Shown: positions 16,526 through 36,064 of the stretch, piece after piece
Position numbering within the stretch: the first letter of the stretch is position 1
Layout of the letters: every line of letters starts with the position of its first letter
Source: Alphaproteobacteria bacterium
Lineage (GTDB): Bacteria > Pseudomonadota > Alphaproteobacteria > Micavibrionales > Micavibrionaceae
NCBI GenBank assembly: GCA_028289285.1
Contig: JANQRF010000004.1
Coordinates: forward strand, 124,001-188,000
Direction: 5' to 3'
DNA length: 64,000 nucleotides
Made by a program: the position numbers and the translations under genes
The notes under the pieces: generated by a model
Told to the model about the DNA's origin: nothing
The model's database searches: none
Seen by the model: only the letters and a program-made list of their open reading frames with translations

Positions 16526-18331
16526 ATGACAGAGGCAATACAAAACACCGATGATCAAAATACGCCTGCACAGGGGAAAACACCCTCTGTGTCGTCAGCG
16601 CTCAATAAGGTACGTATTCTGTTAAATGTCTCAGATAAGCGTACGCTTGCTCTCATTGGCTGTTTCGCGCTTGCTGTGTCTGTTTTAGAAGTTGCCACAG
16701 CATCTACAGTGGTTTTGTTCGGGCAGGCCTTAAATGATCCGGAGGCCGGACGAGATATTTTGGCTAAGATTGGTCTTGGGCAGGACATGGATGCGGATAA
16801 AATTCTGGTCTTTACGGCGCTCTTGGTTGGAGGTGTTTATCTTATAAAAAGCGTTATCACAGCGGCCGAAGCTTTTTTCCAAAATTTTTCCATTCAAAAT
16901 ATGAGCTATAATTTTAAAAACAGATTGCTCGAAAAATATGCCTTTGCAGATTACGCATCCTATTTAATGCGTAATTCATCCTATAATTCACGTGTGGTCG
17001 GCGGAGACGCAGACCAGGTTTTTTCAGTCGCAATGTTATCTATTGCGACCCTTATCTCGGAATCGATTGTCTTTATCTGTCTTGTCGGGTTGATCATTTA
17101 TATCAATCCATCTTTAGCTCTTGCCATTTTTTGCGTTGGAGGCCTTCTGGCATTTGGAGTGAGTAAATTTTTACTGCCGCATTTTTACAGATGGGGCATG
17201 GGCGCCCGTGATGCATCGCTCATGAGCTGGCAAAATCTGCTCCAGTTTTTTCATGGATTTAAAGACATTGTTTTATTTGGAAAGCGTACAGCATTTATCG
17301 ATCAGTATAGATCATACGCGCGTCGTCATGCTCGGCTTTCCGCCATTCAGGCCAGTGCCAAAGCAATGCCGCGGATTGTCATCGAAATTTTATTTGTCGG
17401 GATGTTTGTCGGCGTTATTTGTTTTCTGGCCTATACCGGGCAGCCTTTAACATCCATGGTGGGAACGCTTGGTGCTTATCTGTATGCAGGTTTCCGTCTC
17501 ATGCCGGGCCTTAACCGGATTATTACGCATCTTAATACATTCAAGTCGACAATTCCATCCATTGAACGGGTTTATGAAGAATATGTATCCGTCAGTACGC
17601 CTGAAAATTATCAGGATGTAAAAGAGTTTGAGTTTAAATCTGATATTAAGCTTACTGATATTCATTTCCAGTATAAGGGCACTGAACTGCAGGCGCTAAA
17701 AAATATTAATCTAGAGATTCAAAAAGGGGAGCGGATCGGCATTGCCGGGCAAACCGGATCAGGAAAATCAACTTTAGTTGATCTGATTTTAGGGCTTTTA
17801 AAACCCCAAAGCGGACAAATTTTGGTGGATGGAAAATATCCCGTATGTTCAAGGCAGTGGCATGCGCAGATCGGTTATGTGGCCCAAAGCCTGTATCTGA
17901 CGGATGACACAATTGAGGCCAATATTGCTTTTGGAGAAAGGCCGGAGCAGGTTGATCGACGCCGCCTTGAAAAAGCCGTCGAAGATGCGCAGTTATCGGA
18001 TCTTATTCAAAAACTCCCGGAAGGTTTGAAAACCATTGCAGGCGAGCGCGGCGTGCGGCTGTCCGGCGGAGAGCGTCAGCGGGTCGCGATTGCACGCGCT
18101 TTATACCGGGGGCCGGAAGTTTTGATTTTTGATGAGGCAACATCTGCGCTGGACCACGAAACGGAAAAGCGTTTGATGGAGACAATTGACCGGGTAAGCC
18201 GGAACCATACGGTGATTATGATTGCGCACCGTCTTTCGACCTTAAGAAATTGTGACCGGGTCGTAAAGATGAAGGACGGATCTATTGAGTCGATAGAACA
18301 GCAAGTAGAAAATCAAAAACAGGCTGGTTGA
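16526..18331 (+). CDS. ABC transporter, fused permease and ATPase (PglK/MsbA-like flippase)
   Basis: A 601-residue half transporter. Residues about 40-330 contain six hydrophobic helices; residues 370-590 are the ATPase, with Walker A GQTGSGKST (408-416), LSGGERQRVAIARAL signature (from about 512), Walker B VLIFDEATSALD and the H-loop IAHRLST. The permease segment resembles PglK-type flippases of lipid-linked oligosaccharides more than peptide exporters. It heads the long plus-strand sugar operon, one base before the cytidylyltransferase, so it likely flips the finished lipid-linked glycan. No Wzx/Wzy pair is seen in the window. Confidence 0.88.
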   Translation: MTEAIQNTDDQNTPAQGKTPSVSSALNKVRILLNVSDKRTLALIGCFALAVSVLEVATASTVVLFGQALNDPEAGRDILAKIGLGQDMDADKILVFTALLVGGVYLIKSVITAAEAFFQNFSIQNMSYNFKNRLLEKYAFADYASYLMRNSSYNSRVVGGDADQVFSVAMLSIATLISESIVFICLVGLIIYINPSLALAIFCVGGLLAFGVSKFLLPHFYRWGMGARDASLMSWQNLLQFFHGFKDIVLFGKRTAFIDQYRSYARRHARLSAIQASAKAMPRIVIEILFVGMFVGVICFLAYTGQPLTSMVGTLGAYLYAGFRLMPGLNRIITHLNTFKSTIPSIERVYEEYVSVSTPENYQDVKEFEFKSDIKLTDIHFQYKGTELQALKNINLEIQKGERIGIAGQTGSGKSTLVDLILGLLKPQSGQILVDGKYPVCSRQWHAQIGYVAQSLYLTDDTIEANIAFGERPEQVDRRRLEKAVEDAQLSDLIQKLPEGLKTIAGERGVRLSGGERQRVAIARALYRGPEVLIFDEATSALDHETEKRLMETIDRVSRNHTVIMIAHRLSTLRNCDRVVKMKDGSIESIEQQVENQKQAG

Positions 18332-18332
18332 T

Positions 18333-18989
18333 ATGATCAATATTTTTATTCAGGCCCGCATGAGCTCAAAAAGATTTCCGGGTAAAATGCTGGCCGATTT
18401 TAAAGGGAAGCCATTGATTGATCATGTTGTTGAAAGATGCGCCGCGGCTTCCGGTGTAGACCAGGTTGTTGTTTTGACGAGCGCGGAAAGCTCGGATGAT
18501 CTACTGGCTATGCATGTTGAAAAAGAAGGTCACAGGGTCTTTCGCGGTGATCTAGACAATGTGTTCTTACGGTTTCAAAAAGCGGCGCAGGAATATCCAT
18601 GTGACGCTTTTGTACGTATTAATGGGGACAGCCCTTTAATCGCCCCTGAGCTGATTACGCATATGATAAAGACGGCAAATGAAAATGGGTGCGATTTTTT
18701 ATCAAATGTGAAAGAAAAAACCTTTCCCAAGGGGCAGAGTATTGAGCTTATCAAAACGGATATATTTCAATCCGTTGATGCATCGTCTTTGACGCCGGAG
18801 CAGGCAGAACATGTGATGCCGTATTTTTATGAGCATACAGCAGATTATGTATGTTGTTTTCCGGCTTTAAAAAACAGTATGCGCCATCTCAATATGTGTG
18901 TTGATGTGCCCGAAGATATCAAAAGACTGTCTTCGGAGGAAATTGAATATAGGTTTAAAGCAGAGGATATATGCCAAGATCAGCTTTAA
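18333..18989 (+). CDS. SpsF/NeuA-type cytidylyltransferase
   Basis: A 218-residue nucleotidyltransferase. The N-terminal signature IFIQARMSSKRFPGKMLADF gives the Arg-Lys nucleotide-binding loop of the CMP-acylneuraminate/SpsF group, and VRINGDSPLIAPELI carries the metal-binding Asp. It likely activates a 3-deoxy-nonulosonic or related acid with CTP. It overlaps the downstream oxidoreductase start by 19 bases. The family is broad; KDO-like or spore-coat-type acids are alternatives to sialic-type ones. Confidence 0.85.
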   Translation: MINIFIQARMSSKRFPGKMLADFKGKPLIDHVVERCAAASGVDQVVVLTSAESSDDLLAMHVEKEGHRVFRGDLDNVFLRFQKAAQEYPCDAFVRINGDSPLIAPELITHMIKTANENGCDFLSNVKEKTFPKGQSIELIKTDIFQSVDASSLTPEQAEHVMPYFYEHTADYVCCFPALKNSMRHLNMCVDVPEDIKRLSSEEIEYRFKAEDICQDQL

Positions 18990-19984
18990 AATCTGCTGTT
19001 ATCGGCCTCGGCGTTGGAGAGCAGCATGCACTTGCACTCCTGCGGGATCCGCGCTGTGAGCTTGCCTATGTGTCTGACTTGGATGAAGTGCGCGCACAGA
19101 ATTTTATTCAAGCGCAGGGCGGGCAGAAAATCGAATTGCGGTCTTTTCCGAAGATTGTAAGCGATGAGTCCACACAGCTTGTCTCAATTGCTTCTTATGA
19201 TGAAGATCATTTCGCGCAGGTTTCCGAGCTTTTAAAAACAGGTAAACATGTCTTTGTTGAAAAGCCGCTTTGCCAGACGCGCGCAGAGCTGGAAGATTTA
19301 TTTCAGCTTTGGACGCGGCATCCAAAAGCGCTTGGGTCAAATCTGGTTTTACGCAAAGCGCCGCTTTATCTGAAGCTCAAAGAGATGATTGATACGGGCG
19401 ATCTCGGTGAGATTTATGCCTTTGACGGGGATTATCTCTATGGGCGGCTGCATAAAATTACTGAAGGCTGGCGCGCCAAAACAGATAACTATTCCGTGAT
19501 GGAAGGCGGCGGTATTCATATCATCGATCTGATGCTGTGGCTCACCGGGCAAAAACCGTCCCGTGTCAGTACGCTTGGTAATAAGATCGCCAGCCGGGAG
19601 ACAGATTTTCAATATAATGATTATATGTGCAGCCAGTTTGAGTTTGAGAGCGGCCTGATCGGGCGGATTACAGCTAATTTCGGATGCGTCCACCGGCATC
19701 ATCATGTGATCCGGATTTTTGGCACCAAGGGTACCTTTATCTATGATGATCAGGGTCCGCGCATTCACTGGAGCCGGGAAGAAGACAGCGCAGCCGAATC
19801 CTTAAATGATAATCCGCTGCCCGAACATAAGGGCGTTCTGCTCCCTGAATTTATTGATAAATTGCTCGAAAATGATATAAAAGACGCCGCTTACAGAGAA
19901 TTTAACCTGATGAGCGTGGTGTTAAGTGCCAGTGAAGCACTTGGGGCCGACGCTCCGATACATATAGAGTATGTCACATGCTAA
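18971..19984 (+). CDS. Gfo/Idh/MocA-family sugar oxidoreductase
   Basis: A 337-residue NAD(P)-dependent dehydrogenase. The N-terminal Rossmann domain has AVIGLGVGEQHALAL; the EKPLCQTRAEL segment (about residues 97-107) carries the conserved Glu-Lys-Pro; the C-terminal alpha/beta domain includes GGGIHIIDLMLWLTG, where the His/Asp residues form the active site. GAGGATAT precedes the ATG. In nonulosonic-type loci such enzymes oxidise or isomerise a nucleotide-linked or free amino sugar; the substrate here is unresolved. Confidence 0.88.
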   Translation: MPRSALKSAVIGLGVGEQHALALLRDPRCELAYVSDLDEVRAQNFIQAQGGQKIELRSFPKIVSDESTQLVSIASYDEDHFAQVSELLKTGKHVFVEKPLCQTRAELEDLFQLWTRHPKALGSNLVLRKAPLYLKLKEMIDTGDLGEIYAFDGDYLYGRLHKITEGWRAKTDNYSVMEGGGIHIIDLMLWLTGQKPSRVSTLGNKIASRETDFQYNDYMCSQFEFESGLIGRITANFGCVHRHHHVIRIFGTKGTFIYDDQGPRIHWSREEDSAAESLNDNPLPEHKGVLLPEFIDKLLENDIKDAAYREFNLMSVVLSASEALGADAPIHIEYVTC

Positions 19985-21171
19985 ATGCGAAACCTGCTGA
20001 AGAGCAAAACCAAATAGCTGAAAATCAAAAAGAAATTCCTTTTGGCCGGCCATGGATTGAGGACGCCGAGCGCGCGGCCGTGATGAAGGTGCTGGAGGGG
20101 CATATCCTGACCCACGGGCCTTTATGCCATCAGTTTGAAGATGATTTTGCAGCCTATGTCGGCGGCGGTAAAGCGGTCACGACAAGCTCGTGCATGGCGG
20201 CGCTGCATTTAAGCGTGCTGCATTTCGGTCTTGGGCCGGGTGATGAAGTGCTTGTCCCGGCTCAAACCCATGTTGCGACCGTGCATGCGGTTGAGATTGT
20301 CGGCGCGACGCCTGTTTTTGTCGATTGCGAGCTTGAGACCGGCAATATGGATCTGGATATTTTGGAATCCAAAATCACGCCTAAAACAAAAGCGATTGTG
20401 CTTGTACATTATGTCGGCATTCCGATGCAAATGGACCGTGTGTGTGATTTGGCACAAAAGCATAATCTGCATGTGATTGAAGATTGCGCGCTGGCCGTTG
20501 GCAGTTTTTATAAAGGCAAACATGTCGGCCTTTGGGGGAATACCGGGTGTTTTTCGTTTTACCCGGTCAAACATATTACAACCGCTGAAGGCGGGATGCT
20601 GATTTCCAAAGATGAAAAAACAGCAACAGCCATTCAGAATTTCAGGGCCTTTAATTACGACCGCTCTTTTACCGAGCGGAAAATTCCAGGCGTCTATGAT
20701 GTGATTGGGGTGGGCCTGAATTACCGGATGAGTGAGCTGCAGGCTGCGCTGGGCGTAACGCAGGTTGCCAAGCTTGACCGCATTCAGGCCAAGCGCGCTG
20801 AAAATTTTAAAGCGCTGAAAGCCTCACTGGAAAAGGTAAAAGGCGTACGGCATGTTCTGGACAGCAATCACCCGGAGGGGCAAAGCAGCTATTACTGTGT
20901 GATTGCTATTTTGGAAGAAGAGATTGCGCAAAAGCGAAACGATATCGTTTTGGCGCTTACTGCAGATAAAGTCGGTTGCAGTATTTATTATCCGCAGCCC
21001 GTGCCGCGCATGAAATATTATGCAGGCAAGTATGATACGGATGCAGGGGATTATAAAAATGCCGCCGTGATTAGTGATGCATCTATCGCGCTGCCGGTTG
21101 GACCGCATTTAGATACCGAAGATATGGCGGTTATTGCAGAGAATTTAAAACAGAAAATAGAAAGCATTTAA
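19978..21171 (+). CDS. DegT/DnrJ/EryC1/StrS-family sugar aminotransferase
   Basis: A 397-residue PLP enzyme. The Schiff-base lysine sits in FSFYPVKHITTAEGGML (about residues 194-210), the PLP-binding Asp in VIEDCALAVGS, and the N terminus has VTTSSCMAALHLS. It transfers an amino group from glutamate to a keto sugar, probably the 4-amino step of a nucleotide-linked amino-deoxy sugar feeding the acid synthase downstream (PseC/LegC/SpsC role). It overlaps the oxidoreductase by seven bases and precedes the SDR by one base. Confidence 0.92.
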   Translation: MLNAKPAEEQNQIAENQKEIPFGRPWIEDAERAAVMKVLEGHILTHGPLCHQFEDDFAAYVGGGKAVTTSSCMAALHLSVLHFGLGPGDEVLVPAQTHVATVHAVEIVGATPVFVDCELETGNMDLDILESKITPKTKAIVLVHYVGIPMQMDRVCDLAQKHNLHVIEDCALAVGSFYKGKHVGLWGNTGCFSFYPVKHITTAEGGMLISKDEKTATAIQNFRAFNYDRSFTERKIPGVYDVIGVGLNYRMSELQAALGVTQVAKLDRIQAKRAENFKALKASLEKVKGVRHVLDSNHPEGQSSYYCVIAILEEEIAQKRNDIVLALTADKVGCSIYYPQPVPRMKYYAGKYDTDAGDYKNAAVISDASIALPVGPHLDTEDMAVIAENLKQKIESI

Positions 21172-21172
21172 A

Positions 21173-22207
21173 ATGACGCAAATGACACGAGTTAAAAATA
21201 TGCGCATTGCGCTTGTCGGCGGGGCCGGCTTCATCGGTCATAATTTGGCGCTGGCGCTGAATAAAATGGGCGCGCATGTCGATATTATTGACAGTCTTCA
21301 GGTCAATAACATGTATTCCCTGTCGCAAAATTTTAAAGATCCGGACGATCAAAGGTTTTATATGGATATTTTAAATGAGCGTATGGACCTTTTACGCATT
21401 GCCGGGATCCAAACCCACATGCAGGACGCGCGCGATTATCACGCACTGAGCCGTATTCTCACAGATATTAAGCCGGATGTGGTTGTACAGCTCGCGGCGG
21501 TCTCGCATGCCAACCGGTCCAATAAAGACCCGTACAGCACGTTCGATCACAGTTTGCGCACACTTGAAAATGCGCTTGATGCATGCCGTGATGATATTAA
21601 ACAATTTATCTTTTTCTCTTCGAGTATGGTATACGGCCATTTCCCGGAAGAGGCGGTAACAGAAGATACCGAATGTAATCCGCTGGGCATTTACGGTGCA
21701 CTGAAATTTGCAGGTGAAAAAATCGTGATTGCCTATAACCAGGTTTTCGATATGCCCTATACGATTATCCGCCCGTCTGCCCTGTATGGGGAGCGCTGCA
21801 TTAGCCGGCGTGTCGGCCAGATTTTTCTTGAAAATGCTTTGCGTGGAAAGAATGTGACTATTCATGGGGATGGAACGGACAAGCTTGATTTCACTTATAT
21901 TCAGGATTTGATTCAAGGTGTTGTGAAATCGATTGAACATCCGGGCGGAAAAAACCAGATCTTTAATATTACAACCGGGCAGGGCCGGGAAATTAAAGAG
22001 ATGGCAGAGCTTGTTCAAAAAAGCTTCCCGGGCATTGAGGTAGAATATCAGGCCAAAGATAACCTCACGCCTGATCGCGGGACGCTGTCGATTGAAAAGG
22101 CGCGTAAGCTGATTGGCTATGAGCCGGAGTTCTATCTTGAAAAAGGCTATCAGCGCTATATTGACTGGTATAAAGATTTCGGAGACCGTCAGCGTGCAGC
22201 TGCATAA
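21173..22207 (+). CDS. Extended SDR (NAD-dependent epimerase/dehydratase)
   Basis: A 344-residue extended SDR: ALVGGAGFIGHNLALAL at the N terminus, SSSMVYGHFPE with the catalytic Ser, and GIYGALKFAGEK with the Tyr-x3-Lys pair. DFTYIQDLIQG matches the nucleotide-sugar-binding part. It may be the dehydratase or epimerase that creates the keto or epimeric substrate for the adjacent aminotransferase. Two downstream ATGs (21182 and 21200) are possible alternative starts; MRIALVGG at 21200 would give the most family-like N terminus. Confidence 0.88.
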   Translation: MTQMTRVKNMRIALVGGAGFIGHNLALALNKMGAHVDIIDSLQVNNMYSLSQNFKDPDDQRFYMDILNERMDLLRIAGIQTHMQDARDYHALSRILTDIKPDVVVQLAAVSHANRSNKDPYSTFDHSLRTLENALDACRDDIKQFIFFSSSMVYGHFPEEAVTEDTECNPLGIYGALKFAGEKIVIAYNQVFDMPYTIIRPSALYGERCISRRVGQIFLENALRGKNVTIHGDGTDKLDFTYIQDLIQGVVKSIEHPGGKNQIFNITTGQGREIKEMAELVQKSFPGIEVEYQAKDNLTPDRGTLSIEKARKLIGYEPEFYLEKGYQRYIDWYKDFGDRQRAAA

Positions 22208-22862
22208 GGATGACTGGCTGTCTCAGTTTTTTGAGCATGGTGCCTATACTCTAAAACCACCTTTATCTTGTGAAGATATAGACCTGCCTAATGCTTTTGT
22301 GAGTGCAAAAGTTCAAAGCGAAGATGAAAATATTCTTGATCATTTACAGCAAAAAGGTTTTCAGCACATAGAAACGCTAAATACCTACGCACAAAAAGAA
22401 CTGGTACAAAAACAAAGTGGTAAGGTGTTTGATATCAGGTTTGCCCGCGCGGCGGATGAGGAACAAGTCAGGCAGATCGCAGGCGCGGCCTTTACCTCCT
22501 CTCGTTTTTATACAGATCCACACATTGCGAATGAGGTTGCATCAAAAATCAAATCGGACTGGGCCGGGAATTTTTTTAAAGGGATGCGTGGAGACAAGAT
22601 GATTATCACCGAACAAGATGGTGAGCTGACAGGCTTCCTGCTTCTCATCGGTAATGTGATTGATTTGATTGCGGTCTCTGAGCAGCATCTGCAAAAGGGA
22701 AAAGCACGTGCGCTGATCGGATTTGCAAATGATGACGTTGGTCTTTTGAAAGCAGGTACACAGGCAAAAAATGGGGCCTCTTTGGCGCTATATAAAGCCT
22801 GTGGGTTTGAGCTTGAGAATATACAATATGTTCTGCATAAATATTACAACGAGGATATATAA
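22194..22862 (+). CDS. GNAT-family N-acetyltransferase (WecD/SpsD-like)
   Basis: A 222-residue protein whose C-terminal half has the GNAT acetyl-CoA fold: FDIRFARAADEEQVRQIA, GELTGFLLLIG, then a C-terminal KNGASLALYKACGFELEN segment like that in WecD. I choose GTG at 22194 because GGAG (22181-22184) lies nine bases upstream; an ATG-started extension back to 22113 would run deep inside the SDR gene. It probably acetylates the amino group installed by the upstream aminotransferase. The canonical Q/RxxGxG/A loop is poorly preserved (HLQKGKARALI). It shares the base of its TAA with the ATG of the NeuB gene (TAATG). Confidence 0.8.
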   Translation: MQLHKDDWLSQFFEHGAYTLKPPLSCEDIDLPNAFVSAKVQSEDENILDHLQQKGFQHIETLNTYAQKELVQKQSGKVFDIRFARAADEEQVRQIAGAAFTSSRFYTDPHIANEVASKIKSDWAGNFFKGMRGDKMIITEQDGELTGFLLLIGNVIDLIAVSEQHLQKGKARALIGFANDDVGLLKAGTQAKNGASLALYKACGFELENIQYVLHKYYNEDI

Positions 22863-23890
22863 TGAACCTGTTTGGAAAAGATCTGACAAAAGATATTGCA
22901 ATTATCGCCGAGATTGGTGTCAACCATGAGGGGGATTATGCGCAGGCTGAAAAAATGCTGCGCATGGCAGCGCAGGCAGGCGCTGATGCGGTTAAGTTTC
23001 AATCCTATACCTCTATGCGTTTTGTTGGATCGCGTGATCCCGACAGATTGGCGCAGGTTGAAGGGCGCGCTTTGAGTCTGGAACAATTTCAGTCTTTGGC
23101 AAAACTGGCAGATGAGCTCGGCGTGTCTTTTATTTCAACACCTGTCACAGAAGATTGGATAGAAAAGCTAAATCCGTTTGTGCCGGCCTTCAAAATTGCA
23201 AGTGGAGATATTACATTTGAACCTGTTATTCGCGCAGCGGCAAAAACCGGAAAGCCTGTGATTATTTCGACGGGGTCAGCAACACTGGAAGAGGTGGATC
23301 AGGCTGTTTCCTGGATGAAGGATGAGGTTGGAGAAAATAATCTTAAGGATCGCCTTATCATCATGCAATGTATCTGTGCCTATCCGACACCTGTTGAGCA
23401 GGCCAATGTACGGACCGTTCCATTCTTTAAAGAGCGTTACGGATTATTTACGGGATATTCCAATCATATTATCGGCATGAACGCTGCGTTAGCTGCAGTT
23501 GCCGTTGGCGCAGATGTGATTGAGGTGCATTTCACAGATCAAAAAGAGGGACGCGACTTCAGGGATCATAGCTTATCTTTTGATGAAAAAGATCTCGGTG
23601 AATTTGTTGCGTGCGCACGGGATATACGCAGCGCGCTTGGATCTCAGGAAAAAACGATACAACCTTGCGAACTGGACCCTGCACTTGTGCGTAAAGGCAT
23701 TATCGCAGCTCATGATCTTGAAGCCGGAAGCGTGCTCACCGAGGCTGATTTGATGTTTGCCCGCCCGGCCGATGAAATTCCGTCCGGGGAAATCAGCAGC
23801 TTGATTGGAAAGACCTTGAATGCCTCTTACAAAAAAGGCGAGCAGATTAAGCGCGGTGACGTGCAAGGTCTCACTGCAAAAGCTGCTTAA
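22862..23890 (+). CDS. NeuB-family nonulosonic acid synthase with SAF domain
   Basis: A 342-residue enzyme with an N-terminal TIM barrel and a C-terminal antifreeze-like SAF domain (from about residue 278). Family motifs: IAEIGVNHEGD, VKFQSYT, FISTPV, FKIASGDI, IISTGSAT and CAYPTP. It would condense phosphoenolpyruvate with an N-acetyl amino sugar to form a nine-carbon (or similar) 3-deoxy acid. The usual E-K/R-H-F and PDH-type segment is altered here to EVHFTD and FRDHSLS, so substrate specificity may differ from NeuB, PseI and LegI. It begins inside the preceding stop codon. Confidence 0.9.
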   Translation: MNLFGKDLTKDIAIIAEIGVNHEGDYAQAEKMLRMAAQAGADAVKFQSYTSMRFVGSRDPDRLAQVEGRALSLEQFQSLAKLADELGVSFISTPVTEDWIEKLNPFVPAFKIASGDITFEPVIRAAAKTGKPVIISTGSATLEEVDQAVSWMKDEVGENNLKDRLIIMQCICAYPTPVEQANVRTVPFFKERYGLFTGYSNHIIGMNAALAAVAVGADVIEVHFTDQKEGRDFRDHSLSFDEKDLGEFVACARDIRSALGSQEKTIQPCELDPALVRKGIIAAHDLEAGSVLTEADLMFARPADEIPSGEISSLIGKTLNASYKKGEQIKRGDVQGLTAKAA

Positions 23891-23928
23891 GTCTCTGATT
23901 TCTCTTTAAAAATATTCATATTCCGGGC

Positions 23929-23956
23929 TTGCAATTAAGGCGCGCAGCCGTACTAT
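23929..23956 (+). promoter_or_regulatory. Possible leaderless promoter of asnB
   Basis: TTGCAA (23929-23934) and TACTAT (23951-23956) are separated by 16 bases. The ATG at 23964 is only eight bases from the end of the -10-like hexamer, so transcription would start at or next to the start codon. No Shine-Dalgarno is visible. Pattern match only. Confidence 0.35.
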
Positions 23957-23963
23957 GGCCGCT

Positions 23964-25796
23964 ATGTGCGGCATTGCTGGATATTTTGGCCCGAAAAAAA
24001 TCGAACAGGGGCGGATTGACCGGGCGCTGGGGCTGATGGCCCGGCGTGGCCCGGATGGCCAAAATGCGCGCCAGATTGATCTGGATCAGGAGAAAAACTG
24101 CGCGCTTTTGCATTCACGCCTCAGCATCATTGATCTGGAGGCGCGTTCCGATCAGCCTTTTGCCTATAAAAATCTTATTCTGAGCTATAACGGCGAAATT
24201 TATAATTATCTTGAAGTGCGTACAGAGCTCCAAAAGCTTGGGCATGTGTTTGAAACGGAATCAGATACGGAAGTTCTTATTCATGCGCTTGAAGAATGGG
24301 GCAAAGAGGCGCTGAATAAAGTTGAAGGTATGTTCGCATTTGCCTTGTTGGATACGCGGACGGGCAAGCTGCTTTTGGCGCGTGATCCGTTTGGCGAGAA
24401 ACCGCTTTTTATCTATCAACCTGCACCCGGTGAAATATATTTCGGCTCTGAAGTGAAATTGCTTGCTGCATTATCGGAGAAAAAATTCACACCAAATATC
24501 AACCATATCAGCCGTTTTCTCGTGAACGGCTATAAGGCGCTTTATAAAACGCCGGAACGGTTTTTTGTTGAGGTTAAAGATGTGCCTGCCGGGTCCTGTC
24601 TGGAAATAGATACGCGTGGAAATTTTGTTCAGCAACGTTACTGGCATCCGAATATGGATGTTGATCAGGATATGTCCTTTGAGCAGGCAACAGCACGTAC
24701 CCGTGAGCTTTTCATCCGGTCCATGGAACTTAGATTGCGCGCGGATGTCCCGCTGGCCTTTTGTTTGAGCGGAGGCATTGACTCCAACTCTCTGATTAGT
24801 ATCGCGCGCAGAGAGCTGGATTATGACGTGCATGGCTTTACGATCCTCAATAAAGACAGCCGCTATGAGGAACAGGATATGATTGATGTTGCGGTAAATG
24901 AGCTTGGTGTGAAACATCACGGTGAACCGATTTCAACAGATAACTTTCTTGGAAACCTAAAAGAACTTGTCCGGTATCAGGATGCACCGGTTGCAACGAT
25001 TTCCTTTTATCTCAACTGGTTGCTTCAGGAAAAAATCGCTGCGCATAAATACCGGATATCTGTCAGCGGCACGGCGGCCGATGAAATTTTTTCAGGCTAT
25101 TTTGATCACCAGCTTTTTTATATGCATGATATCAAAGATGATCCGGAGCATCTGAAATTAAGCATCGAAAACTGGAAGCGGGATGTCGGGCCGATTGTCC
25201 GTAATCCATTGTTGCAGGACCCGTACGCCTTTATTGAGCGCCCGTTTGAGCGCGGCCATGCCTATTTGGGCTGCGAAAAATATAGCAGCTATCTGGTTCA
25301 ACCCTGGTCGGAACCCTTTGAAGAAATTTATTACCGCGACGGGCTTTTGCAAAACCGGATGATGAATGAAATTTTCCATGAAGTGACTCCGGTTGTAATG
25401 CATCAGGAAGATTTGAACGCGATGTATCATTCGATTGAAAATCGATCGCCGTTTTTAGATCGTGATTTGTTTGAATTCGCCCATTCCATTCCGGCAAAAC
25501 ATCTTGTGAAAGACGGCAAAGCCAAAATGGTTTTACGTGAAGCGATGCGTGGGATTGTGCCTGACCCAATTCTCGATAATAAACGTAAAGTCGGATTTAA
25601 CGCGCCGATCCATGATTTGCTGGATGTTGATAATCAAGAGGTGCGGGAAGAAGTTTTAAAGGACAGTCCGATCTGGGATGTGGTGCGCAAAGAGCCGATT
25701 AAAGAGATGATTGAAAATAAAGACTCGCCTAATAGTGACAGTAAATTTATTTTTTCATTCTTGGGCTGTAAGATATTTTTGGAAGACTATGCATGA
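23964..25796 (+). CDS. asnB: Asparagine synthase (glutamine-hydrolysing), glycan-locus type
   Basis: A 610-residue class II glutamine amidotransferase. The start at 23964 places Cys at position 2 (MCGIAGYFG), the N-terminal nucleophile required after Met removal; an ATG at 23955 would bury it. The synthetase domain has the PP-loop SGGIDSNSL near residue 270. The reading resembles AsnB paralogues of surface-glycan loci that probably amidate a sugar acid rather than free aspartate. It overlaps the downstream PseA/WbpG-type gene by four bases, hinting at a joint amidation or amidination step. Confidence 0.88.
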   Translation: MCGIAGYFGPKKIEQGRIDRALGLMARRGPDGQNARQIDLDQEKNCALLHSRLSIIDLEARSDQPFAYKNLILSYNGEIYNYLEVRTELQKLGHVFETESDTEVLIHALEEWGKEALNKVEGMFAFALLDTRTGKLLLARDPFGEKPLFIYQPAPGEIYFGSEVKLLAALSEKKFTPNINHISRFLVNGYKALYKTPERFFVEVKDVPAGSCLEIDTRGNFVQQRYWHPNMDVDQDMSFEQATARTRELFIRSMELRLRADVPLAFCLSGGIDSNSLISIARRELDYDVHGFTILNKDSRYEEQDMIDVAVNELGVKHHGEPISTDNFLGNLKELVRYQDAPVATISFYLNWLLQEKIAAHKYRISVSGTAADEIFSGYFDHQLFYMHDIKDDPEHLKLSIENWKRDVGPIVRNPLLQDPYAFIERPFERGHAYLGCEKYSSYLVQPWSEPFEEIYYRDGLLQNRMMNEIFHEVTPVVMHQEDLNAMYHSIENRSPFLDRDLFEFAHSIPAKHLVKDGKAKMVLREAMRGIVPDPILDNKRKVGFNAPIHDLLDVDNQEVREEVLKDSPIWDVVRKEPIKEMIENKDSPNSDSKFIFSFLGCKIFLEDYA

Positions 25797-26920
25797 TTAA
25801 ATATTGTAAAAATTGTGTGCTGCCTGACAGCCGCCCCAATTTAGAAATTGGCGCTGATGGTATTTGTAATGCGTGTCATTCCTGGTCTGACAAAAAAGAA
25901 ATAATTGACTGGGAGGCACGGCTTAAAGATTTCGAGAAGCTTGTTGAACATACAAAATCAAAAGCGGTGTCCTGGGATTGCGTGATCCCGGTATCTGGTG
26001 GTAAGGACAGCACCTGGCAGGTGATCAAAGCATTAGAGTTTGGGTTAAAGCCGCTTTGCGTCACCTGGCGCACACCGGCACGCAGCGCGCTTGGCCAGCG
26101 CAATCTGGATAATCTGATTGGCCTTGGCGTGGATCATATTGATGTGACGATTAATCCGGATGTTGAAAAACGTTTTACGATTGAAACATTCAAGAAAGCC
26201 GGAAGTCTTGCTATTCCCATGCATATGGCGATTTTCGCGATTCCGCTTCAAATGGCGATTAAATTTAAAATTCCGCTTGTGCTTTGGGGCGAAAATTCAG
26301 CTATGGAGTATGGCGGTAAGGGTGAAAATACGCTCGGCTTTAAAATGACGCGGGACTGGCTGAAAACGTACGGCGTGACGCAAGGGACGCTGGCACAGGA
26401 CTGGGTATCAGATGATTTAAGTGAAAAAGACTTATCGGCTTATTACTGGCCGGACGATCATGAGCTGGAGGAGGCTGGTGTCACGGCCGCGTTTTTAGGA
26501 TGGTATCTGCCGTGGGACCCGGAAGAGACATTTCGTGCCGCGAAAGAGCATGGGTTTGAAGCGCTTTCAGATAAACCGCTTACCGGTTATTACACATATG
26601 CAGATGTTGATGATGAATTTATTATTACGCTGCATCACTGGATGAAATGGTATAAGTTCGGCTTCACGCGGCTGTGGGATAACTTGTCTCTTGAGATCCG
26701 AAGCGGACGTATGAGCCGTGCGCAGGCGATTGAAATCATCAAAGAAAAAGGGGACGAGTATCCGAAAGAAGAAATTGATAAATTTTGTGTATGGGCCGGC
26801 ATGAGTGAAAAGGAATTTTTAGAAATTGCGCAGACATTCAGGAATAAGGACATATGGTCAGAAAAATCAGGCAGTTGGGTAATTGATAGTTTTTTAATAG
26901 ATGAGTGGAACTGGTCATGA
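25793..26920 (+). CDS. N-acetyl sugar amidotransferase (PseA/WbpG-like)
   Basis: A 375-residue enzyme with an N-terminal zinc site (Cys5, Cys8, Cys25, Cys28) and a PP-loop ATP-binding motif SGGKDST (68-74). LVLWGENSAMEYGGKGEN and YPKEEIDKF match the PseA/WbpG/TIGR03573 family, which converts an N-acetyl into an acetamidino group on pseudaminic-type or ManNAc(3NAc)A sugars. WbpG-type enzymes usually work with HisH/HisF-like ammonia partners; none is present, and the adjoining AsnB glutaminase domain is a plausible ammonia source (inference). Confidence 0.9.
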   Translation: MIKYCKNCVLPDSRPNLEIGADGICNACHSWSDKKEIIDWEARLKDFEKLVEHTKSKAVSWDCVIPVSGGKDSTWQVIKALEFGLKPLCVTWRTPARSALGQRNLDNLIGLGVDHIDVTINPDVEKRFTIETFKKAGSLAIPMHMAIFAIPLQMAIKFKIPLVLWGENSAMEYGGKGENTLGFKMTRDWLKTYGVTQGTLAQDWVSDDLSEKDLSAYYWPDDHELEEAGVTAAFLGWYLPWDPEETFRAAKEHGFEALSDKPLTGYYTYADVDDEFIITLHHWMKWYKFGFTRLWDNLSLEIRSGRMSRAQAIEIIKEKGDEYPKEEIDKFCVWAGMSEKEFLEIAQTFRNKDIWSEKSGSWVIDSFLIDEWNWS

Positions 26921-28110
26921 AGCTGAATATTAAAGAGACTCCACGCAGCTTTAAAGTTGGGATGGATGGATCCATTACGCTGCATGATATGGGCTCGATT
27001 GATCTTGCACCCGATGAACAGGTGACATTCGTCAATGAAAACGGTCAGGAATATGATGTTTGCCGCAAGGCGTGGGGGTATTACGCTACACCATCCATTA
27101 ATGACCGGCTGCGGCGGTTTGGCTATAAGACGGCGCTTGTGAAGAATGCCAAAGGCCAGGGTTTTATTATGCTGGTGGAAGACGGCAAAGAAGAGCTGTT
27201 TTTTGAATATCTCAAAGAAGAAGATAACATTCTTGTCTCCTGGCTGGATGAAGAGTTTGAACTTGGCCGCAGTGAGATAGAGGTTGCCAAAGGGAAGGTT
27301 TGTCCGGTTTGTAAATCAAGCGCCGTAGAAGAAGTTGCCGTCTTTGATAAAAAGCCGGATGATGAGAATGATTTTGCAATTGATCCTTATCACCGCAGTT
27401 TAAAGTGCTGTCAGTCCTGCGGGCATCTTTTTAATATTCATGACTATGATGTTGAAAGTTTTTACAGCGGACATTACGCGCAATCTGTTTATAGCGATGA
27501 GATGCAGGCAAAATTTGAGAAGATCATCAATTTGCCTGAAGACAAATCTGATAATAAAGCACGGGTACAGCGTGTGCAGGCGCTTCTTACAGATAGTGGT
27601 ATCCAAAGAGACAATGAAGAGACTAAGGTTCTGGATATCGGGTCCGGACTATGTGTTTTCCTCCATGAGCTTAGCCGGCAAACGAGCTGGCAGTGCACGG
27701 CACTGGATCCGGATAAAAACCAGGCGGCGCATGCGCGTGACGTTTGCAAGGTAGAAGCTGTCACAACGGATGTCATGGAATATGCGCCGCAGAAACGATA
27801 TGATTTTGTAAGTCTTAATAAGGTGCTGGAGCATTTTGAATACCCGGAGAAGCTTCTTGAGAAAATGCGTTCTTTCCTGCCAAAAGATGAGCCCGGATAT
27901 GTATATATTGAAGTGCCGGACGGGGAATATGCTGCGCGCGAGTCATATGAACGGGAAGAATTTTTCATTGAGCATTTTCATGCTTTCAGCTTCAAATCGC
28001 TGTTTATGATTATGATGAAATCCGGCTATGAACCGCTTCAGCTTTCGCGTATAAGAGAGCCAAGCGGAAAATATACGCTCTATTGTTTTGCCGCGGCTAA
28101 AGGACTTTAA
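26917..28110 (+). CDS. Two-domain protein: unknown N-terminal domain plus zinc-ribbon SAM methyltransferase
   Basis: A 397-residue protein; start at 26917 overlaps the upstream TGA as ATGA. Residues 1-115 form an unrecognised beta-rich domain (DEQVTFVNENG, KGQGFIMLVEDG). Next are CPVC and CQSCGHLF cysteine pairs, a zinc ribbon, then a SAM methyltransferase with VLDIGSGLCVFLHEL, NKVLEHFEYPEKLLEKM and YIEVPDGEYAA. Coupling to the amidotransferase suggests the N-terminal domain and the methyltransferase act on the same modified sugar acid. I do not recognise the N-terminal domain. Confidence 0.78.
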   Translation: MKLNIKETPRSFKVGMDGSITLHDMGSIDLAPDEQVTFVNENGQEYDVCRKAWGYYATPSINDRLRRFGYKTALVKNAKGQGFIMLVEDGKEELFFEYLKEEDNILVSWLDEEFELGRSEIEVAKGKVCPVCKSSAVEEVAVFDKKPDDENDFAIDPYHRSLKCCQSCGHLFNIHDYDVESFYSGHYAQSVYSDEMQAKFEKIINLPEDKSDNKARVQRVQALLTDSGIQRDNEETKVLDIGSGLCVFLHELSRQTSWQCTALDPDKNQAAHARDVCKVEAVTTDVMEYAPQKRYDFVSLNKVLEHFEYPEKLLEKMRSFLPKDEPGYVYIEVPDGEYAARESYEREEFFIEHFHAFSFKSLFMIMMKSGYEPLQLSRIREPSGKYTLYCFAAAKGL

Positions 28111-32643: not shown

Positions 32644-33426
32644 ATGAAAACGGTTATTTTGGCAGGCGGATATGGCACGCGGATTCGGGATGTCTCTGAA
32701 AGCATCCCAAAGCCGATGATTCCTGTCGGTCACCGTCCGATCCTGTGGCACATAATGAAGGGTTATGCGCATCATGATTTAAAGGATTTTATTATTTGTC
32801 TTGGCTACAAAAGCGAAGAGATTAAAAATTATTTCCTGAATTATAAAATGTATCAAAGCGATCTCACGCTGGATATGAGTAGTGGACAGGTTAAGTATCA
32901 TAATGAAGAGTCTCTGGATGACTGGAAAGTGACATTTGTACAAACGGGCCTTGATTCTGGTACCGGCACACGCCTGCAACGGATTCAAAAGTATATTGAG
33001 GGGGAAGAGTATTTTTGCCTGACTTATGGGGACGGCGTTGGCGATATTGATATTAAAAAGCTGATCGACTTTCACAAATCCCACGGAAAGATTGTCACAG
33101 TAACGGGCGTGCATCCACCTGGGCGGTTTGGTGATCTGGATATAGATGGGAACCAGGTTGTCGGGTTTAATGAAAAGCCCCAAACCCATGAAGGGCATAT
33201 TTCAGCCGGCTATTTTGTGTGCAGTAAAAAGTTTTTTGACTATTTGCCGGAAGGTGATCCCTCTTTGATGTTTGAGAATGACCCCTTTAAAGAACTGGCC
33301 AGCGACGGTCAGATGATGGTCTATAAGCATGACGGTTTCTGGATGCCGATGGATACATCCCGCGATTACAATTATCTCAATACATTGTGGAAACAGGGTA
33401 GTGCGCCCTGGAAGGTTTGGTCATGA
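32644..33426 (+). CDS. rfbF: Glucose-1-phosphate cytidylyltransferase
   Basis: A 260-residue nucleotidyltransferase. The N terminus VILAGGYGTRIRDVSESIPKP is the nucleotide-binding signature; PMIPVGHRPILWHIMKGYAHH, YGDGVGDID and HPPGRFGDL are specific to RfbF. It makes CDP-glucose from glucose-1-phosphate and CTP, the first step of CDP-deoxyhexose synthesis. ATGA overlap with the 4,6-dehydratase shows coupling. Confidence 0.94.
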   Translation: MKTVILAGGYGTRIRDVSESIPKPMIPVGHRPILWHIMKGYAHHDLKDFIICLGYKSEEIKNYFLNYKMYQSDLTLDMSSGQVKYHNEESLDDWKVTFVQTGLDSGTGTRLQRIQKYIEGEEYFCLTYGDGVGDIDIKKLIDFHKSHGKIVTVTGVHPPGRFGDLDIDGNQVVGFNEKPQTHEGHISAGYFVCSKKFFDYLPEGDPSLMFENDPFKELASDGQMMVYKHDGFWMPMDTSRDYNYLNTLWKQGSAPWKVWS

Positions 33427-34493
33427 GCGCGGTCTTTGACCTGTTTCAAGGCAAGTCGGTTTTCATCACAGGGCATACAGGGTTTAAAGGCTCCTGGCTT
33501 GCTTTCTGGATGAAACAGCTCGGCGCCAATGTAACAGGATATGCACTTGCGCCCGATCATGAAAATGCGCTCTTTGATGCGCTTCAGCTGGAAGGCGACA
33601 TTAATCATATCGTTGCCGATATTCGCGATGCGCAGCGCCTGGAAGAAGAAATGCAAAAAGCGAAGCCGGATTTTGTCTTTCATTTGGCGGCGCAGGCGCT
33701 TATTCGAAAATCTTATGCAGAACCTCTTTTGACGTTTGATACAAATGTGATGGGCTCGGCCAATCTTTTAAATGCGATCCGCACCTGTCCGTCTGCGCGC
33801 GCGCTTGTCTATATCACGTCCGATAAATGTTATTTTAATAAAGAGCTCAACCGCGGCTATCATGAAGATGATTTATTGGGGGGTTCTGATCCGTATAGCG
33901 GGTCAAAGGCGTGCGCAGAACTTGTCTTTCAAAGTTATTATTTGTCTTATTTTAAAGACCGTGAAAATTTTGGATGTGCCTCCACGCGGGCCGGCAATGT
34001 GATTGGCGGTGGAGACCGCTCTCACGACCGGATTGTACCCGATATTATCCGCGCGGCTGAAAGAGGAGAAGCTGTCACATTGCGTCATCCTGATGCCACG
34101 CGCCCCTGGCAGCATGTACTTGATCCGCTCTACGGGTATATGGTTTTGGCGGCGCGTTTATATGACGGCCCTGATGAGATAAACGGGCAGGGCTGGAATT
34201 TTGGGCCACCTGATAGTTCTATGCGTACGGTTTTAGATTTGACGCAGGGCCTGACAAAAATGTGGGAGAGCGTAGAGATTAATATCGACCGGCCTGAAGA
34301 TGCACCGCATGAAGCAACGCTGCTGCATTTATCGATTGAAAAAGCAAAAGGCGCGCTTGGCTGGAGTCCCCATTACGAGTTTGATCAGGCTGTTGAAAAG
34401 ACAGGCGCGTGGTATAAAGCTGTTATGGATGGAAAAGCACCAAAAGATATGACGGCCGCGCAGATCCAAGACTATATGGACGGTGTCTCATGA
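33423..34493 (+). CDS. rfbG: CDP-glucose 4,6-dehydratase
   Basis: A 356-residue extended SDR. FITGHTGFKGSWLAFWM (from about residue 14) is the distinctive RfbG NAD-binding segment; YITSDKCYFN holds the catalytic Thr-Asp/Lys region and GSDPYSGSKACAE the Tyr-x3-Lys pair. It converts CDP-glucose to CDP-4-keto-6-deoxyglucose. The start at 33423 overlaps the rfbF stop as ATGA. The following aminotransferase overlaps its end by four bases. Confidence 0.94.
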   Translation: MSAVFDLFQGKSVFITGHTGFKGSWLAFWMKQLGANVTGYALAPDHENALFDALQLEGDINHIVADIRDAQRLEEEMQKAKPDFVFHLAAQALIRKSYAEPLLTFDTNVMGSANLLNAIRTCPSARALVYITSDKCYFNKELNRGYHEDDLLGGSDPYSGSKACAELVFQSYYLSYFKDRENFGCASTRAGNVIGGGDRSHDRIVPDIIRAAERGEAVTLRHPDATRPWQHVLDPLYGYMVLAARLYDGPDEINGQGWNFGPPDSSMRTVLDLTQGLTKMWESVEINIDRPEDAPHEATLLHLSIEKAKGALGWSPHYEFDQAVEKTGAWYKAVMDGKAPKDMTAAQIQDYMDGVS

Positions 34494-35629
34494 GTAATAT
34501 TCCGGTCTTTTTACCCTATTTTACCGATGAAGAAATGGATATTGCCCGCGAGGCGCTGGAACTGCGATGGCTTGGGCCCGGCAGCTATGTGAAAGAGTTT
34601 GAACAAAAGCTTGCAGATTTTATCGGCATCGCGCCGTGGCAGGTCGTAGCTGTGAATACAGGTACATCTGCGGTGCATTTGGGTCTGGAGCTTTGTAGTG
34701 TCGGCGCAGGCGATGAGGTCATCACACCGTCTTTTAATAATATCTCCGATATTCAGATGATCCGCGCGCTCGGGGCCCAGCCTGTCTTTTGCGATGTCAA
34801 AGAAGATACGCTGACCATTGATCCGGATAAATTTGAAGACCTCATCACCGAAAAAACAAAAGCGATTATCTGTATTGATTATGGCTGCGCCTTAAGTGAT
34901 TTTGATGCGGTTAAGAAAATAGCTGATCGACATAGTGTGCCAGTTTTATATGATGCGGCGCATAGTTTTGGGTCATCTTATGACGGCAAAAAGATCGGGT
35001 CTTTTGGCGATGTTGTCACCTTTAGTTTTGATCCGGTGAAAAACATTACCTGTATTGATGGTGGCGCCGTGATTGTACGTGATGAAGATCAGGGACAGCG
35101 GCTGCGGCATATGCGGCTTTTAGGGCAGGAACAAAATCAGGCGGTGCTCGATCAAAATCAACGCGGCTGGCGCTATGATGTGACAGGCCCGGGCTATCGC
35201 TATCATCTCGCCAATCTGCACGGCGCGATCGGTATTCAGCAGATGAACAAGATCGATGATATCTATGCAAACCGGCAGCGTATGTTTGATACTTATGACC
35301 GGGCGCTTGAAGGTATAGACGGCATCGTAAAACCGGTTAAGAATGCAGCGGATATCATGCCCTTTATTTATGTGATCCGTGTTTTGGGCGGGCAGAGGGA
35401 AGCTTTTATGGCCTATCTGGCCGAAAACGGCGTGGATACAGGCATTCACTGGCAGCCTAATCACGGATTTACGCTATTCAAGGATTGTCGTCGTGGCGAT
35501 TTAAGCGTCACGGATATGATCGGCGATCAGATTGTGACACTGCCGTCCTACCCAGAACTTCAGGATGACCAGGTTGAATTTATTGCGCAAGTCATCAAGA
35601 ATTTTTTCAAACAAAAAGCGGCGGCCTAG
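34490..35629 (+). CDS. DegT/DnrJ/EryC1-family sugar aminotransferase
   Basis: A 379-residue PLP enzyme. The Schiff-base lysine lies in TFSFDPVKNITCIDGGAV, and YDAAHSFGS contains the PLP-contacting Asp. A lysine rather than the histidine of RfbH (the 3-dehydratase) indicates amination, so the product after rfbFG is likely a CDP-linked 3- or 4-amino-6-deoxyhexose. It is coupled to rfbG by ATGA and followed without gap by an RmlC-like epimerase. Confidence 0.92.
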   Translation: MSNIPVFLPYFTDEEMDIAREALELRWLGPGSYVKEFEQKLADFIGIAPWQVVAVNTGTSAVHLGLELCSVGAGDEVITPSFNNISDIQMIRALGAQPVFCDVKEDTLTIDPDKFEDLITEKTKAIICIDYGCALSDFDAVKKIADRHSVPVLYDAAHSFGSSYDGKKIGSFGDVVTFSFDPVKNITCIDGGAVIVRDEDQGQRLRHMRLLGQEQNQAVLDQNQRGWRYDVTGPGYRYHLANLHGAIGIQQMNKIDDIYANRQRMFDTYDRALEGIDGIVKPVKNAADIMPFIYVIRVLGGQREAFMAYLAENGVDTGIHWQPNHGFTLFKDCRRGDLSVTDMIGDQIVTLPSYPELQDDQVEFIAQVIKNFFKQKAAA

Positions 35630-36064
35630 ATGATAGAGGGCGTACATCATATTCCGCTCAAGCGCATAGAAAATCCGCAAGGCGATATCCTGCATATGCT
35701 GCGCGCGACCGACCCGCATTTTGATGCATTCGGCGAAATTTATTTTTCATGGATTAAACCGGGTGTAATTAAACCTTGGCGTAAGCATAGGTCCCAAATT
35801 TCAAATATCGCCGTGCCGGTCGGCAACGTGCGTTGCGTGATTTATGATGACCGCGAAGGCAGTAATACATCCGGACAGTTTCAAAGCTTTGATCTTGGAG
35901 AGAGTAATTATGCGCTTTTAAAAATTGAACCGGGCCTGTGGCATGCATTTACGGGTTTGGCTGAAGCGCCGGCGCTCATTGCCAATTGTACCTCTGCGCC
36001 GCATGATCCAGATGAGAGTGAGAAATGCGATCTCGATGCTATTGCGTATGAGTGGGGGGTGTAA
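35630..36064 (+). CDS. RmlC-like sugar 3,5-epimerase/cupin protein
   Basis: A 144-residue single cupin domain. MLRATDPHFDAFGEIYFSWI, the KPWRKHRSQ segment and GLWHAFTGL match short relatives of dTDP-4-dehydrorhamnose 3,5-epimerase, although the catalytic His/Tyr arrangement of full-length RmlC is only partly visible. In this place it probably epimerises the CDP-4-keto-6-deoxyhexose made by rfbFG. It starts immediately after the aminotransferase stop and shares a base with the GT2 start. Confidence 0.8.
   Translation: MIEGVHHIPLKRIENPQGDILHMLRATDPHFDAFGEIYFSWIKPGVIKPWRKHRSQISNIAVPVGNVRCVIYDDREGSNTSGQFQSFDLGESNYALLKIEPGLWHAFTGLAEAPALIANCTSAPHDPDESEKCDLDAIAYEWGV

Follow-up and report, generated by a model that had tools for sequence, protein, structure and literature searches.

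The closest described systems to the locus analysed here are the legionaminic acid (LegB-C-H-G-I-F) and pseudaminic acid (PseB-C-H-G-I-F) pathways, which share with it a PseC-like aminotransferase, a GNAT acyltransferase, a NeuB-family synthase and a CTP-transferase encoded in one operon. To our knowledge, every textbook route includes a sugar dehydratase and a nucleotide-releasing hydrolase, and all known bacterial sialic, legionaminic and pseudaminic acid routes that proceed via nucleotide sugars need the latter; annotators use the type of hydrolase to predict the product. The sps operon of Bacillus subtilis (SpsC-D-E-F-G) has an aminotransferase, GNAT, NeuB and SpsF-type CTP-transferase in common with the locus. 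It also encodes a PseG-like protein, SpsG, while we know of no Gfo/Idh/MocA (Gfo) oxidoreductase or AsnB/WbuX proteins in that operon; the reverse is true of the locus described here. In the Kdo8N route, the ulosonate itself is oxidized by the KdnB dehydrogenase, transaminated by the DegT-family enzyme KdnA and activated by a KdsB-like enzyme, but this oxidase belongs to a family other than Gfo and the 8-carbon acid is made by KdsA rather than NeuB. Oxidation by a Gfo enzyme followed by transamination without dehydration occurs in aminoglycoside and amino-sugar synthesis (GenD2/GenS2, NtdC/NtdA and WbpB/WbpE).

The locus lies at positions 18333-26920 of a 64,000-nucleotide stretch of DNA (the window) from an alphaproteobacterium of the order Micavibrionales. 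Its eight open reading frames are all present on one strand (+), with overlaps or gaps of 1-73 bases. The first gene (18333..18989) encodes an SpsF/KdsB-like cytidylyltransferase (PF02348, 97 bits; best NCBIfam model PRK13368 (KdsB), 76 bits, below its cut-off), which is presumed to activate an ulosonic acid with CMP; a CTP_transf_3 gene of this kind is kept in nearly all of the cassettes compared. It is followed by genes encoding a Gfo oxidoreductase (18971..19984; GFO_IDH_MocA), a DegT/DnrJ/EryC1 aminotransferase (19978..21171), an extended SDR of the Epimerase type (21173..22207), a WecD-like GNAT N-acyltransferase (22194..22862), a NeuB-family synthase with NeuB and SAF domains (22862..23890), an AsnB-type glutamine amidotransferase (23964..25796) and a WbuX-type N-acetyl sugar amidotransferase (25793..26920). 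Based on alignment with relatives, the GNAT gene probably starts at the GTG at 22194 rather than the TTG at 22113. The aminotransferase is of the C4-aminating, PseC/ArnB-like type: its best model is PseC (289 bits against a cut-off of 423) and its top PDB match is ArnB, with KdnA (5k8b) a weaker match. It is thus nearer to the C4 type than the aminotransferases of the Gfo-dependent pairs named above and, unlike them, is linked to NeuB.

Directly upstream of the cassette is a gene for a PglK/MsbA-like ABC exporter (16526..18331, +), an arrangement repeated in genome G079. Directly downstream is a gene for a methyltransferase with an extra N-terminal domain (26905..28110, +), whose position next to the cassette is conserved in relatives (as two open reading frames in Azospirillum). 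These genes belong to a large polysaccharide region with further sugar genes. At 32644-36064 of the window, CDP-glucose genes (a cytidylyltransferase and a CDP-glucose 4,6-dehydratase scoring above cut-off) precede a DegT aminotransferase gene and a gene for a small unassigned protein; together they account for another sugar of the locus, one of an ordinary kind. The window also contains a second AsnB-type amidotransferase gene at 36882-38852 on the minus strand.

An earlier note, made from the sequence alone, had found no NeuC, PseG or LegG homologue at the locus and had named a genome search as the check. That search agrees with it. In the source genome (G000; 2.08 Mb, 8 contigs, estimated completeness 100%), which encodes a single NeuB, profile searches identified no PF02350 protein (the NeuC/LegG/WecB family) and no PseG, even at E ≤ 1, while the same profiles gave matches in control genomes. 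A hydrolase elsewhere in this genome was rejected on these grounds. The search used two profiles, which an enzyme of another or very divergent family would escape; as the PseG profile also missed the MurG of this genome, it is not exhaustive and a very divergent enzyme could remain. Of nine cassette genomes searched, most of them draft MAGs, five (G000, G079, G085, G142 and G143) gave no PF02350 or PseG match and one (G148) gave only a weak PseG-like match of 22 bits. The other three (G145, G146 and G147) do encode enzymes of the PseG or NeuC type, but in each case the gene lies away from the cassette, at a locus that has a NeuB of its own. A hydrolase gene was present within approximately 10 kb of NeuB at none of the 11 loci of the NeuB clade described below, as compared to 25 of the 31 neighbourhoods of other NeuBs in the order (Fisher p 3e-6, a descriptive value only because the 11 loci are related by descent).

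AGE or NanE was considered as a general source of a nucleotide-free aldose and rejected. One AGE-type epimerase gene (PF07221) is found in the source genome, unlinked to the cassette; the other eight genomes gave weak matches only, in G143 and G148, and NanE was not over cut-off in any genome searched. An N-acylglucosamine 2-epimerase, as expected for an AGE-type ManNAc route, does not accompany the pathway. Two additional observations concern genomes in which neither hydrolase type was detected. G143 carries a PseB-DegT locus that includes two more NeuBs (L130 10780-16867, G143:C109), with no PseG or NeuC/LegG detected in the genome, a hint that limited sensitivity or MAG gaps may leave such enzymes undetected. 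G085 encodes a 757-aa fusion (L147 7132-9405, G085:C6) that, as read from its sequence, joins a CBS pair, a NeuB domain and a xylose-isomerase-like TIM barrel; comparable long NeuB open reading frames (525-760 aa) occur elsewhere in the order. This fusion may represent another hydrolase-free design.

The usual first step is also missing, a gap that the earlier note did not mention. Sugar 4,6-dehydratases carry the motif T-D/S-E-VYG. In the cassette SDR and its relatives the corresponding motif is SSS-M/T-VYG (nine of nine homologues), so that the dehydratase Glu is absent; all nine keep the YxxxK Tyr and Lys. The closest folds to the SDR model (pLDDT 80) are UDP-sugar 4-epimerases. Judged by its motifs, the SDR is epimerase-like and not a 4,6-dehydratase. 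No true PseB was found in G000, G079, G085 or G142, the PseB profile giving weak matches only in G000. The module is therefore without two standard steps, the dehydratase and the hydrolase. Of the enzymes expected for legionaminic or pseudaminic acid synthesis, the C4 aminotransferase and N-acetyltransferase are represented at the family level only (DegT resembling PseC/ArnB and GNAT resembling WecD), LegB/PseB and PseG or LegG/NeuC were not found, and a conserved Gfo is present in addition. A search for the SDR in phages gave no match.

Could the cassette still encode an ordinary route of the legionaminic or pseudaminic type, with non-orthologous or divergent replacements such as a hidden hydrolase and a borrowed 4,6-dehydratase? 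DegT and GNAT are nearest to PseC and WecD, a CDP-glucose 4,6-dehydratase (33417-34493, 459 bits) is encoded 10 kb downstream, and enzymes of unfamiliar families escape profile searches. However, this dehydratase is an above-cut-off CDP-glucose enzyme encoded beside its own cytidylyltransferase and aminotransferase, PseB is absent from four cassette genomes, the NeuB clade is separate, and Gfo and the epimerase-like SDR are conserved although they would be unneeded in such a route. We consider this explanation rather unlikely.

The NeuB protein scores below cut-off as both N-acetylneuraminate synthase (TIGR03569, 262 bits against 400) and PseI (TIGR03586, 206 bits against 340), and with its position in a separate clade it is assigned to neither. 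In a tree of 51 proteins that includes solved sialic and pseudaminic acid synthases but not LegI and SpsE references, the 11 cassette NeuBs form one group (support 100/99) apart from those synthases and from every NeuB of the tree that was found beside NeuC or PseG. In line with the reading of the earlier note, which had proposed a different sugar acid, this NeuB lies outside the sialic and pseudaminic clades sampled. The residues expected of a PEP-condensing synthase are kept (K53, Q55, K129, S213, H215, H236 and R314, NmNeuB numbering), and Glu134 is replaced by Asp. One extra residue, an Arg or a His ahead of Asp247, is present in the F[RH]DH loop of all 11 clade members and was not seen in the other aligned NeuBs; 10 of the 11 share the motifs SNH and VHFTDxK.

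When 84,980 species genomes were scanned with this NeuB, eight loci were obtained, all of them alphaproteobacterial (48-61% identity). One of these, L038, is the record of G079, which was reached independently by a search of the order; G085 is the only other genome of the order above 50%. Together with G085, an Azospirillum brasilense plasmid and the window, these make up the 11 loci of the NeuB group. A module of Gfo, ArnB/PseC-like aminotransferase, SDR, GNAT, NeuB and CTP-transferase recurs in ten alphaproteobacterial loci, including those of Pacificispira and the Azospirillum plasmid, with no hydrolase inside or beside it. As the hydrolase-less module recurs in relatives, the absence does not reflect a loss peculiar to the source genome. 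In 10 of the 11 loci, NeuB is accompanied, at the locus or at another place in the genome, by DegT, SDR and GNAT-type genes, and in nine of those ten also by Gfo; the contig of G148 ends near DegT before Gfo is reached, and GNAT is not reached at the end of L045. The exception is L041 (G144), where no SDR was detected; it has a clade NeuB, CTP-transferase, formyltransferase and deacetylase, and G144 encodes PseG with a different NeuB on the same contig. In the Azospirillum brasilense MTCC4039 plasmid p5 cassette (L148 6675-8981), Gfo and DegT appear to be frameshifted through sequencing error or decay.

In four Rhodospirillales genomes, the module is split between different operons or contigs. 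One half contains NeuB, AsnB, WbuX, a formyltransferase and, in three cases, GNAT, and it adjoins Maf-type flagellin glycosyltransferase genes, a feature shared with legionaminic and pseudaminic acid loci. The other half contains DegT, SDR and the CTP-transferase, with Gfo located directly behind flgK in the three genomes where it is reached. The proximity of Maf and FlgK genes to the two halves points to flagellin glycosylation as the function of the module in Rhodospirillales. In Pacificispira, both halves lie within approximately 20 kb. This arrangement bears on the possibility that two separate sugars are made, one acid by NeuB and the CTP-transferase and an unrelated amino sugar of the same glycan by Gfo, DegT, SDR and GNAT. 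The polysaccharide locus that holds these genes is indeed large and contains other sugar genes, and the L041 NeuB has no Gfo, DegT or SDR nearby. We nevertheless consider two sugars unlikely, as the halves co-occur in the four Rhodospirillales genomes despite the split, the CTP-transferase is grouped with the Gfo half and GNAT with the NeuB half, and SDR is present in 9 of 10 checked genomes carrying a clade NeuB.

Other genes of these loci were considered as the missing step. A formyltransferase and polysaccharide-deacetylase pair lies between GNAT or SDR and NeuB in L038 (8355-9984), L033 (8247-9891) and L039 (8319-9971), resembling the formyl protect-and-remove logic of ArnA/ArnD. Because the pair is absent from the window locus, the G143 cassette and Azospirillum, it is not the missing step. 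Genes found between Gfo and DegT in Rhodospirillales were rejected as a hidden hydrolase since they are not conserved.

The earlier note had also singled out the oxidoreductase as non-standard for such pathways, and the comparison of loci confirms Gfo as a conserved part of the module. The EKP lysine (K98) and GGGxH histidine (H183) are invariant in eight relatives. Inositol and sugar dehydrogenases lead the fold matches to the Gfo model (pLDDT 84), with GenD2, KanD2 and the sialic acid oxidoreductase RgNanOx (6z3c) ranked lower. Based on the intact Lys98 and His183 and these fold matches, Gfo is probably a working dehydrogenase. Two uses would fit such an enzyme: oxidation ahead of transamination by DegT, or redox cleavage of a nucleotide sugar. 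The second has precedents in this fold or its chemistry: Gfo-family redox cleavage of sugars is described for the levoglucosan route (PMC7676230) and the Gfo-family enzymes NanOx/YjhC are described as acting on dehydrated sialic acids (PMC7315737, PMC7535918). In this scheme, Gfo would replace LegG/NeuC by oxidizing C3 of the nucleotide sugar, eliminating UDP, adding water and reducing the product, thereby releasing the sugar and possibly re-epimerizing C2. Gfo accompanies the cassette while hydrolases are absent, and the RgNanOx fold match is in keeping with these precedents. However, the lysine and histidine of ordinary dehydrogenases are intact and the top fold matches are to inositol and sugar dehydrogenases, not glycosidases, so that replacement of LegG/NeuC by Gfo appears distinctly unlikely.

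Acetamidino-forming systems of the WbuX/WbpG type, such as LpNASAT (8wex; PMC10607449) and that of a Sphingomonas EPS (PMC11340318), operate with HisH and HisF2, and the WbuX family is characterized by a tetracysteine motif and an SGGXDS PP-loop (PMC10607449). The window WbuX matches this family in score (TIGR03573, 343 bits against a cut-off of 203) and in its tetracysteine and SGGKDS motifs, and 8wex is a homologue. In contrast to these systems, the window has no HisH or HisF2 and instead, or in addition, encodes AsnB (TIGR01536, 395 bits against a cut-off of 267), with an SGGIDS PP-loop and, if translation starts at Met4, an MCGIAG N-terminus. The source genome has no WbuZ/HisF2 or second HisH; its one HisF and HisA pair sits together as in histidine synthesis.

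The ATGA coupling of the AsnB and WbuX genes reported in the earlier note is real (at 25793), but its proposal that AsnB stands in for HisH/HisF has lost ground. Donation of ammonia from AsnB to WbuX in place of HisH/HisF would be consistent with this overlap, with the adjacency of AsnB and WbuX in most cassettes and with the lack of a WbuZ over cut-off in any cassette genome. In G143, though, a single operon encodes NeuB, AsnB, HisH, HisF2 and WbuX, in G085 NeuB is followed by AsnB on a contig that lacks WbuX, and some other WbuX genes of the order have no AsnB nearby. The first two cases indicate that AsnB tracks NeuB and is not a substitute for HisH/HisF. From these gene arrangements, it is somewhat unlikely that ammonia donation to WbuX is the sole role of AsnB; it probably acts on its own, forming an amide, and does not merely feed WbuX.

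Because two standard enzymes are missing, the module probably follows a chemically different route. We predict, with a probability of about 50%, that its product is a nonulosonate-type acid, CMP-activated, N-acylated and in most cases amidinated, which is made without a 4,6-dehydratase, hydrolysing 2-epimerase or PseG-type hydrolase. The genes present, those absent across whole genomes, the separate NeuB clade, the motifs and the recurrence of the set suggest the following course: Gfo would oxidize a sugar hydroxyl, DegT would transaminate the resulting ketone, GNAT would acylate the new amine and the epimerase-like SDR would set one centre. The clade NeuB would then condense the aldose with PEP, the SpsF/KdsB-like enzyme would activate the product with CTP, and WbuX would convert acetamido to acetamidino. 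A free aldose could be available in two ways: the substrate of amination may be a sugar that carries no nucleotide, or already the ulosonate, as in the Kdo8N route; alternatively, Gfo may cleave the nucleotide by redox elimination and hydration. Without a dehydratase in the route, the terminal hydroxyl that legionaminic and pseudaminic acids lack should be retained in this product. The proposed route would be consistent with the co-occurrence of the two Rhodospirillales halves and, by analogy, with the known Gfo and aminotransferase pairs, in which a sugar hydroxyl is replaced by an amine with no dehydration step. Evidence against it comes from L041/G144, with a clade NeuB, PseG and no detected SDR; from the unlinked AGE-type gene (PF07221) of the source genome; and from G143, where no hydrolase was detected despite a separate PseB locus that includes two NeuBs, given draft MAGs and a search by two profiles. 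A bolder and more doubtful proposal is that the module defines a new nonulosonic acid class, in which Gfo takes over nucleotide release by NAD-dependent redox elimination or makes release unnecessary, and in which the product is a 9-hydroxy diamino acid so far unobserved in nature.

No description of this module was identified among the papers searched; EpaA/EpaB (PMC12053666) and sfmABCDE (PMC3765264) were considered and rejected as different systems. We conclude that the module is real and recurs, and that it represents a variant of nonulosonate-type biosynthesis that has apparently not been described before. Its recurrence without a hydrolase makes it unsafe to predict a product from NeuB alone. 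The module suggests that the sugars of flagella and surface polysaccharides include new chemistry, which can be tested directly in the cultured hosts Pacificispira spongiicola KN72 and Azospirillum brasilense MTCC4039.
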